A stretch of 64,000 nt of DNA from Acuticoccus sp. I52.16.1 (GTDB taxonomy: Bacteria; Pseudomonadota; Alphaproteobacteria; Rhizobiales; Amorphaceae), in NCBI RefSeq assembly GCF_022865125.1, contig NZ_CP094828.1:3279219-3343218 (forward strand), read 5' to 3'. The first letter of the stretch is position 1. The number at the start of each line of letters is the position of its first letter. Below the pieces are notes generated by a model. That model made no database searches. It saw nothing but the letters and a program-made list of their open reading frames with translations, and was not told the origin of the DNA. Made by a program: the position numbers and the translations under genes. Positions 62,383 to 64,000 of the stretch are shown in pieces.

Positions 62383-64000
62383 ATGCAGACACACGACGGC
62401 CCTGAGGACGCGGTGGCGGAGCCGGCCGGGGCGTCGTCTCGGGAGGGCGTCCTGTTCCTCGTCGTCGGGCCGAGCGGGGTGGGCAAGGACTCGTTGATCG
62501 ACGGCGCTCGTGCCCGCCTGCCGCAGCGGCACTTCAGCCTCGCCCAGCGTGTCGTCACCCGCCCGCGTGAGGCCGGTGGCGAGGACCACGAACCCATGGA
62601 CCTCACCACCTTTCGTGCCGAGGAGGCCGCGGGCGCCTTCGCCGTCGCCTGGGGCGCGCATGGCCTGCGCTACGGCATCCGCCACCGTGCCATCGCCCCG
62701 CTGGCGCAGGGGTCCAACGTCATCGTCAACGCCTCGCGCGGCTCGATCGGCGCCTTCGCGACCCTCGCCCGGCGCGTCGTGGTGATCTCCGTCGTCGCCC
62801 CGCCGGAGATCGTGCGCGCCCGTCTCGAAGCCCGCGGGCGCGAGGACGCGGCCGACGTCGCCGCGCGGCTCGAGCGGCGGGTGCCGCTGGTCGGCGCCGG
62901 CAACGTCGCGGTCATCGACAACGGCGGCGCGCTGGAAGTGGGGGTCGACCATTTCGTCGCCGCACTCCTCGGCGCCGCCCGGCTGCCGCTCGCCGTGCAC
63001 CGTGTCCCCGTCACGCTGCCGGGCGGTCCCGTCGCGTTCGTGCATCGCGCCGCGTTGCCGCTCGCCAGCCAGCAGGTCGCGGCAGGCGGGGGGACCGAGG
63101 TCGTCGCCGACAGCGCCGTGCGCGTGCGCCTCGCCGTGACCGACGGGCCGCTCGTCGACCCGGCCAGCGTCGGCCTGCCGGACGCGGTGTTCGACCGGCT
63201 CGGTGCCGCCGAGGGCAGCGAGGTGGTTCTGCGCCGCGCCGCACCGCCCGTCAGCCGGGACGCGCTCCGGCGCAAAATCGCCGGCGATACGCTGGGGGCT
63301 GGCGCCATCGCCACCATCGTGCGCGACATCGTCGACGGCCGCTACAGCGAGGCGGAGGTGGCCGGCTTCCTCGTCGCCGCCTCGCGCCAGCTCACCGTGA
63401 CCGAGATTGCGGCGCTAACGAAGGAGCGTGCCGGCCTCGTCGTGCCGATCGCCTGGGATCGCCGGTTGGTGGTCGACAAGCACTCGCTGGGCGGCGTGCC
63501 GGGCAACCCGATCTCGCTGGTGGTGGTCCCGGTGGTGGCCGCGCACGGGCTGCCGATCCCCAAGACGTCCTCGCGTGCGATCACCTCCGCCGCCGGCACC
63601 GCCGACATCATGGAGTGCGCCGCGCGCGTGGATCTCGACGCTGCCGACCTGAAGCGCGTCGTGAGCACCGCGGGCGGCGCCGTCGCCTGGGCCGGACGCA
63701 TCAGCCACAGCCCGCTCGACGACGTGATGAACGCCATCAACCGCCCGCTCGGGATCGCTTCGCCGGGGCTCGACGTGTCCTCGATCTTGTCCAAGAAGCT
63801 CGCCGTCGGCGCGACCCATGTGGCGATCGACATTCCGGTCGGCCCTGCCGCCAAGGTGAAGACGGCCGAGGCGGGCGCCGAGCTGGCGCGGCTCTTCGAG
63901 GAGGTGGGCCGCGCGGTCGGCCTCACCGTCCGTGCCGCGATCAGCGACGGGCGCCACCCGCTCGGCCGCGGTGTGGGCCCCGCGCTGGAGCTGGAGGACG
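62383..64000 (+). CDS. PhnN ribose-1,5-bisphosphokinase fused to an AMP-phosphorylase/thymidine-phosphorylase-family domain (3' end outside window)
   Basis: 539 codons are visible with no stop. Residues about 20-200 are PhnN: Walker A G-P-S-G-V-G-K-D-S at 29-37, T-R-P-R-E-A-G-G-E-D-H at 59-69, H-G-L-R-Y-G-I at 93-99; PhnN makes PRPP from ribose-1,5-bisphosphate and ATP. Residues about 205-290 look like the N-terminal beta domain of archaeal AMP phosphorylases (G-L-P-D-A-V-F-D-R-L-G). Residues 290-539 are the nucleoside-phosphorylase II fold: D-G-R-Y-S-E-A-E at 318-325, V-V-D-K-H-S-L-G-G-V-P-G-N at 363-375, P-K-T-S-S-R-A-I-T-S-A-A-G-T-A-D at 393-408, S-K-K at 470-472. AMP phosphorylase yields the substrate of PhnN. 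GGAG lies six bases before the ATG. Confidence 0.87.
   Translation, partial: MQTHDGPEDAVAEPAGASSREGVLFLVVGPSGVGKDSLIDGARARLPQRHFSLAQRVVTRPREAGGEDHEPMDLTTFRAEEAAGAFAVAWGAHGLRYGIRHRAIAPLAQGSNVIVNASRGSIGAFATLARRVVVISVVAPPEIVRARLEARGREDAADVAARLERRVPLVGAGNVAVIDNGGALEVGVDHFVAALLGAARLPLAVHRVPVTLPGGPVAFVHRAALPLASQQVAAGGGTEVVADSAVRVRLAVTDGPLVDPASVGLPDAVFDRLGAAEGSEVVLRRAAPPVSRDALRRKIAGDTLGAGAIATIVRDIVDGRYSEAEVAGFLVAASRQLTVTEIAALTKERAGLVVPIAWDRRLVVDKHSLGGVPGNPISLVVVPVVAAHGLPIPKTSSRAITSAAGTADIMECAARVDLDAADLKRVVSTAGGAVAWAGRISHSPLDDVMNAINRPLGIASPGLDVSSILSKKLAVGATHVAIDIPVGPAAKVKTAEAGAELARLFEEVGRAVGLTVRAAISDGRHPLGRGVGPALELED

Follow-up and report, generated by a model that had tools for sequence, protein, structure and literature searches.

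What might a cell gain from joining a ribose-1,5-bisphosphate (R15P) kinase to a nucleotide phosphorylase in one polypeptide? A gene of this architecture begins near the end of the stretch of Acuticoccus sp. I52.16.1 DNA analyzed here (64,000 nucleotides, C1:3279219-3343218 of a 5.5 Mb genome; hereafter 'the window'). Its frame opens with an ATG at 62383 on the forward strand and is still open at the window edge at 64000, and the whole-genome sequence places the stop at C1:3343676, giving a product of 691 amino acids (Table 1). A preliminary description of the window had seen here one uninterrupted frame fusing PhnN to an AMP phosphorylase-type domain, and had proposed that the protein converts nucleoside monophosphates (NMPs) through R15P to free base and PRPP. 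The frame is as it described, the C-terminus that it sought beyond position 64000 has been located, and every motif it named lies in the translation where it was said to be: GPSGVGKD, TRPREAGGEDH and HGLRYGI in the kinase half, and DKHSLGGVPGN, KTSSRAITSAAGTAD and SSILSKK in the phosphorylase half. A stop hidden between the two halves can be dismissed, because 16 other sequences share this architecture.

Table 1. Coordinates in the window of the fusion gene, its domains and the residues that set it apart (Tk, numbering of the Thermococcus kodakarensis AMP phosphorylase)
Feature	Position	Strand	Basis or remark
Fusion gene, 5′ part	62383..64000	+	539 of 691 codons; 3′ end ~458 bases past the window
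PhnN-type ribose-1,5-bisphosphate kinase domain, residues 22-195	62446..62967	+	TIGR02322
P-loop GPSGVGKD, residues 29-36	62467..62490	+	Motif in translation
N-terminal domain, AMP-phosphorylase type, residues 201-288	62983..63246	+	Model alignment to 4ga5
Phosphorylase catalytic domains, residue 289 onward, cut by window edge	63247..64000	+	4ga4; PF02885, PF00591, PF07831
SSRAITS nucleotide-binding stretch, residues 396-402	63568..63588	+	Identical in archaeal AMP phosphorylase
His442 (Leu239 Tk)	63706..63708	+	His in 17/17 fusions; Leu/Ile in 48/48 stand-alones
Asn450 (Ile247 Tk)	63730..63732	+	Asn in 17/17 fusions; Ile/Leu/Val in 48/48 stand-alones
Asn453 (Glu250 Tk)	63739..63741	+	Glu in 48/48 stand-alones, 0/17 fusions
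Ala459 (Asp256 Tk)	63757..63759	+	Asp lost in 14/17 fusions, kept in 47/48 stand-alones

Curated family models assign both halves. The first passes the PhnN equivalog threshold (TIGR02322, 163.1 bits against a cut-off of 156), and residues ~204-678 pass those of the PRK04350/TIGR02645 phosphorylase family (NF003338, 'putative thymidine phosphorylase', 525.6 against 434; TIGR02645, 438.1 against 434.6). The AMP-phosphorylase equivalog TIGR03327 scores 395.6 against a cut-off of 535, so the label 'AMP phosphorylase' itself does not apply. Thymidine and pyrimidine-nucleoside phosphorylases were rejected as identities (TIGR02643, 120 against 570.7; NF004490, 172.8 against 269; NF004747, 124.5 against 559). 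In an AlphaFold model with a mean pLDDT of 84.4, residues 201-691 superpose on residues 1-491 of the T. kodakarensis AMP phosphorylase 4ga5 (Z 44.3), and the match to 4ga4 reaches Z 50.3 at 1.8 Å across 399 residues. Since the fold search mainly probes residues 289-691, the identity of the kinase half rests on its sequence families.

A search for the two-domain architecture, as the preliminary description had advised, yields 17 sequences from Alpha- and Betaproteobacteria. To the window gene, scanning one genome for each species adds 12, a class sample of alphaproteobacteria adds one (genome G065, locus L045), and plasmid records add three, from Pacificitalea (Alphaproteobacteria) and from Variovorax and Paraburkholderia (Betaproteobacteria). 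Hosts include two further Acuticoccus (L007, L015), two species of Roseovarius, Limibaculum, a Paracoccus, Mangrovicoccus, Poseidonocella, Labrenzia, and metagenome-assembled genomes (MAGs) of an Anderseniella and of a member of Hyphomicrobiales. The 17 phosphorylase domains form one clade against 48 stand-alone relatives (support 100/100), and with this clade spanning two classes the fusion is real and not an artefact. It is also rare, being recognised in 2 of the 289 alphaproteobacteria of the even class sample and 3 of 395 genomes of the family of R. nubinhibens. The Paraburkholderia fusion (L118:14046-15878) is shorter than the others, the N-terminal domain of the phosphorylase being missing between kinase and catalytic domain. 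Public records for Variovorax (L117:16007-18160) and Pacificitalea (L119:7959-10085) label the entire protein 'PhnN, phosphonate metabolism', a name that is probably misleading.

Aligning the 17 fusions with the 48 stand-alone relatives, in Tk numbering, separates what is kept from what has changed. All fusions retain the positions that serve nucleotide and phosphate binding (194-199, 203, 264, 268 and 288). Positions 239-250, which contain three of the four changes in Table 1, sit immediately before Arg251, a residue that aligns with the base-binding arginine of thymidine phosphorylase; the natural reading of these changes is that the base itself is a different one. The window protein retains neither of the AMP phosphorylase-type acids Glu250 and Asp256, the latter being annotated as the proton donor and presumably the general acid. 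Loss of Asp256 could not be upheld as diagnostic of every fusion once Variovorax, Paraburkholderia and G065, all of which retain it, were included. A pyridinium leaving group, such as that of nicotinate mononucleotide (NaMN), requires no general acid or proton on departure. The earlier choice of AMP or another NMP as substrate fares poorly here, for next to the base-binding arginine the fusions have moved away from every relative of AMP/NMP type, and a substrate other than AMP is likely.

Gene neighbourhoods, read by eye from translations except where model or structure searches are named, place the fusion beside nadC, the gene for quinolinate phosphoribosyltransferase. In 12 loci outside Acuticoccus nadC lies immediately upstream on the same strand at a gap of 2-50 nt, and a 13th nadC-fusion locus (L011, genome G293) is cut by a contig end. 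Leaving aside L012, which starts at a contig edge, every one of the 13 loci outside Acuticoccus that can be judged has nadC adjacent to the fusion; all three Acuticoccus genomes lack the gene. The neighbouring NadC is a true TIGR00078 member (314.6 against a cut-off of 198.4), and all 12 of the cluster NadC proteins contain the quinolinate-site motifs, for which we assume the residue assignments familiar from the QAPRTase literature. Ahead of nadC, the alphaproteobacterial loci carry a TAXI receptor and a fused TRAP permease. The gene after the Variovorax fusion is an orthologue of Bug27 (2qpq, 457 bits; next match 206). Quinolinate binds to Bug27 and Bug69 with Kd values of 136 and 70 nM, respectively (PMC11452294). 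In the loci read, none of the genes near the fusions was recognised as a phn gene, which speaks against a phosphonate (C-P lyase) role; the general salvage or phosphonate-linked function suggested earlier thus finds no footing among neighbours that are quinolinate and nicotinate genes.

In addition to the NadC of the cluster, Labrenzia 011 (G296) and Poseidonocella (G298) encode another one close to nadA. Acuticoccus, both Roseovarius, G065, G290 and G293 lack NadA, and the last three also have no nicotinate phosphoribosyltransferase (PRTase). Of these, G065 and G290 apparently rely on quinolinate as their source of NAD; unless it is regulated, cleavage of NaMN in these two would compete with the making of NAD.

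Genes for nicotinate degradation form a second group of neighbours. In both Roseovarius species, Limibaculum and a Paracoccus, the fusion stretch also encodes a Mo-dehydrogenase, a 6-hydroxynicotinate reductase and an enamidase. The set stands ahead of the transporter in R. nubinhibens, where the enamidase matches 2vun at 355 bits (next match 29), the reductase is ~75% identical to plasmid proteins so annotated, and the two-gene Mo-dehydrogenase matches nicotinate dehydrogenase subunits among other members of its family. A MarR regulator, an AA_synth protein and a UPF0280-type protein (named as in Sulfitobacter) complete it, and R. aestuarii, Limibaculum and Paracoccus have much the same genes. 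The MarR protein beside the Paraburkholderia fusion is an orthologue of BpsR (179.7 bits; next match 82.6), a sensor of 6-hydroxynicotinate, and keeps Tyr15, His23, Arg26 and His32, all four of the residues that hold this ligand (PMC6837509). The Variovorax MarR gives only weak matches to solved MarR structures. Across whole genomes, 11 of the 15 alphaproteobacteria that carry the fusion, all three Acuticoccus among them, encode 6-hydroxynicotinate reductase, compared with 44 of the 289 sampled from the class (Fisher p ~1.5e-6, uncorrected for kinship among relatives that are not independent). Enamidase is intact in 7 of the 15; in the G290 MAG its gene is broken by an in-frame TGA and a split frame (L098:13865-14529). 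Neither marker was found in the genomes G294, G298 and G299.

From the fusion and its clade, the gene order, the neighbours, the residue changes and the fold, we infer a substrate, a direction and a cycle. The protein is predicted to be a bifunctional mononucleotide phosphorylase and R15P kinase, likely acting on NaMN and closing a PRPP cycle with NadC, a reading to which we give a probability of about two in three. NaMN is the likely nucleotide because nadC adjacency, the transporters, the degradation genes with BpsR and the residue pattern, taken together, point to it. Quinolinate, a pyridine acid, would be taken up by the adjoining transporter and converted by NadC, with PRPP, to NaMN, CO2 and PPi. 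The C-terminal half would then split NaMN, the most likely pyridine mononucleotide, with Pi into nicotinate (vitamin B3) and R15P, and the N-terminal PhnN half would use ATP to return R15P to PRPP, releasing ADP. The net reaction would be quinolinate + Pi + ATP to nicotinate + CO2 + PPi + ADP, with nicotinate passing on to ring reduction and opening through nicotinate dehydrogenase, 6-hydroxynicotinate reductase and enamidase. PRPP would thus act as a regenerated carrier for catabolic decarboxylation of quinolinate and NaMN phosphorylase would be a new activity, propositions towards which we lean somewhat less firmly. No description of a PhnN-phosphorylase fusion, of NaMN phosphorolysis or of this quinolinate route was found in the literature searched, a body of work outside which most subscription journals fall.

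Several observations weigh for the quinolinate cycle, namely the second NadC copies of G296 and G298, the association with 6-hydroxynicotinate reductase and the single fusion clade. Counted against it are the solitary gene of Acuticoccus, the Asp256 of three fusions, by which acid loss is no rule, the missing degradation markers of G294, G298 and G299, and the competition with NAD synthesis in G065 and G290. What survives of the original proposal is passage from a mononucleotide through R15P to PRPP within one polypeptide, which is supported by the domain identities, by the retained residues for phosphate and nucleotide and by an unfused pair in another alphaproteobacterium (L028:1483-4340). 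There a stand-alone phosphorylase has a divergent PhnN as its neighbour, followed by a PRTase-like gene, an arrangement that supports the general logic of R15P to PRPP. The substrate and role are probably others than those first suggested.

The window's own genus departs from the common arrangement. In Acuticoccus the fusion gene stands alone, downstream of or beside genes of the bc1 complex. A search of its own genome with Roseovarius NadC and with PF01729, the latter positive in 12 of 14 controls, recovered no nadC, and neither NadA nor NadC was found in the three genomes (G000, the window genome, with G289 and G297), for which dependence on niacin-type precursors is predicted. A gene of the nicotinate PRTase (PncB) family is present. 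The full quinolinate cycle cannot run here because nadC is absent, and the most that the Acuticoccus enzyme could do would be to regain nicotinate and PRPP from NaMN that arises in some other way. The window genome encodes 6-hydroxynicotinate reductase at C1:548425, away from the fusion, in a cluster (C1:544000-556000; L127, L128) that also carries genes for a large Mo-dehydrogenase and for UPF0280-like and LIV-type ABC proteins. The same genome yielded no enamidase.

In a rival explanation, the phosphorylase half would act on AMP, CMP or UMP and supply PRPP to NadC, which would convert quinolinate taken up from outside to NaMN for NAD. The adjoining nadC, the kept NMP-phosphate residues and the several hosts without NadA suit this, as do G065, G290 and G293, where absence of nicotinate PRTase as well would make imported quinolinate the source of NAD. 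We nevertheless regard it as unlikely, since the fusions have changed residues beside the base-binding arginine that are fixed in NMP-type relatives, the adjoining degradation genes and the BpsR sensor would go unexplained, and PRPP synthase is normally available in cells anyway. Somewhat less likely again is the salvage originally envisaged, in which AMP or NMPs in general yield free base and PRPP, possibly in connection with phosphonates: the domain families and the L028 locus speak for it, but the shortfall at TIGR03327, the lack of recognised phn genes near any fusion, the quinolinate and nicotinate neighbours and the residue changes all tell against it.

The enzyme might also run in reverse, making a mononucleotide from nicotinate or another base with R15P, or from PRPP and ADP by way of the kinase half, and so bypassing nicotinate PRTase. 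In principle, phosphorylase and kinase reactions can run either way, and nicotinate PRTase is missing from some hosts. The PncB-family gene of Acuticoccus led us to set such a bypass aside, and six other fusion hosts have a gene of this family as well; NadC and the uptake system would yield NaMN in any case, and pyridinium N-glycosides favour cleavage, so that we consider synthesis highly improbable.

The preferred reading, NaMN phosphorolysis coupled to R15P kinase, draws on parts known from other systems. Like the AMP (NMP) phosphorylase TK0352 of T. kodakarensis (4ga4/4ga5), the C-terminal half has the same fold, N-domain included (Z 44-50), the same nucleotide-binding residues and the same expected product, R15P; unlike TK0352, the fusions carry PhnN, have lost Glu250 in all cases and Asp256 in most, have gained His and Asn, and lie in another genomic setting. 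The kinase half resembles PhnN in passing its equivalog cut-off with P-loop and signature motifs intact, but it is joined to a phosphorylase and has no recognised phn operon nearby. In Bordetella (nadQ-nadC-bug69; Bug27/Bug69) NadC likewise stands beside a quinolinate-binding protein, as with the Bug27 orthologue of Variovorax, whereas the role there is NAD synthesis, and a kinase-phosphorylase fusion does not appear in the passages of PMC11452294 consulted. The neighbouring 6-hydroxynicotinate reductase and enamidase belong to the families of the nicotinate pathways of E. barkeri and Azorhizobium, but those pathways begin at nicotinate, and the fusion loci are proposed to add an entry module from quinolinate. 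If this is correct, PRPP, normally a building block that is consumed, would be a recycled handle by which NadC decarboxylates an aromatic acid, and a biosynthetic enzyme would have been turned to a step of degradation. It would further open quinolinate use to marine and soil proteobacteria, define a NaMN phosphorylase activity, explain a 'phosphonate' gene beside nadC and correct the public PhnN annotation.

The bacterial stand-alone 'putative thymidine phosphorylases' (NF003338/TIGR02645) are of the same family as the fusions by cut-off, but, apart from the residues in Table 1, they fall outside the fusion clade and differ in setting. Most of their loci are ordered MBL-fold protein, phosphorylase and Prs-like gene. 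This arrangement, with a beta-CASP-like MBL-fold protein, is apparently a conserved module (L019-L044, L072-L092), which might perhaps lead from RNA or NMPs to PRPP.
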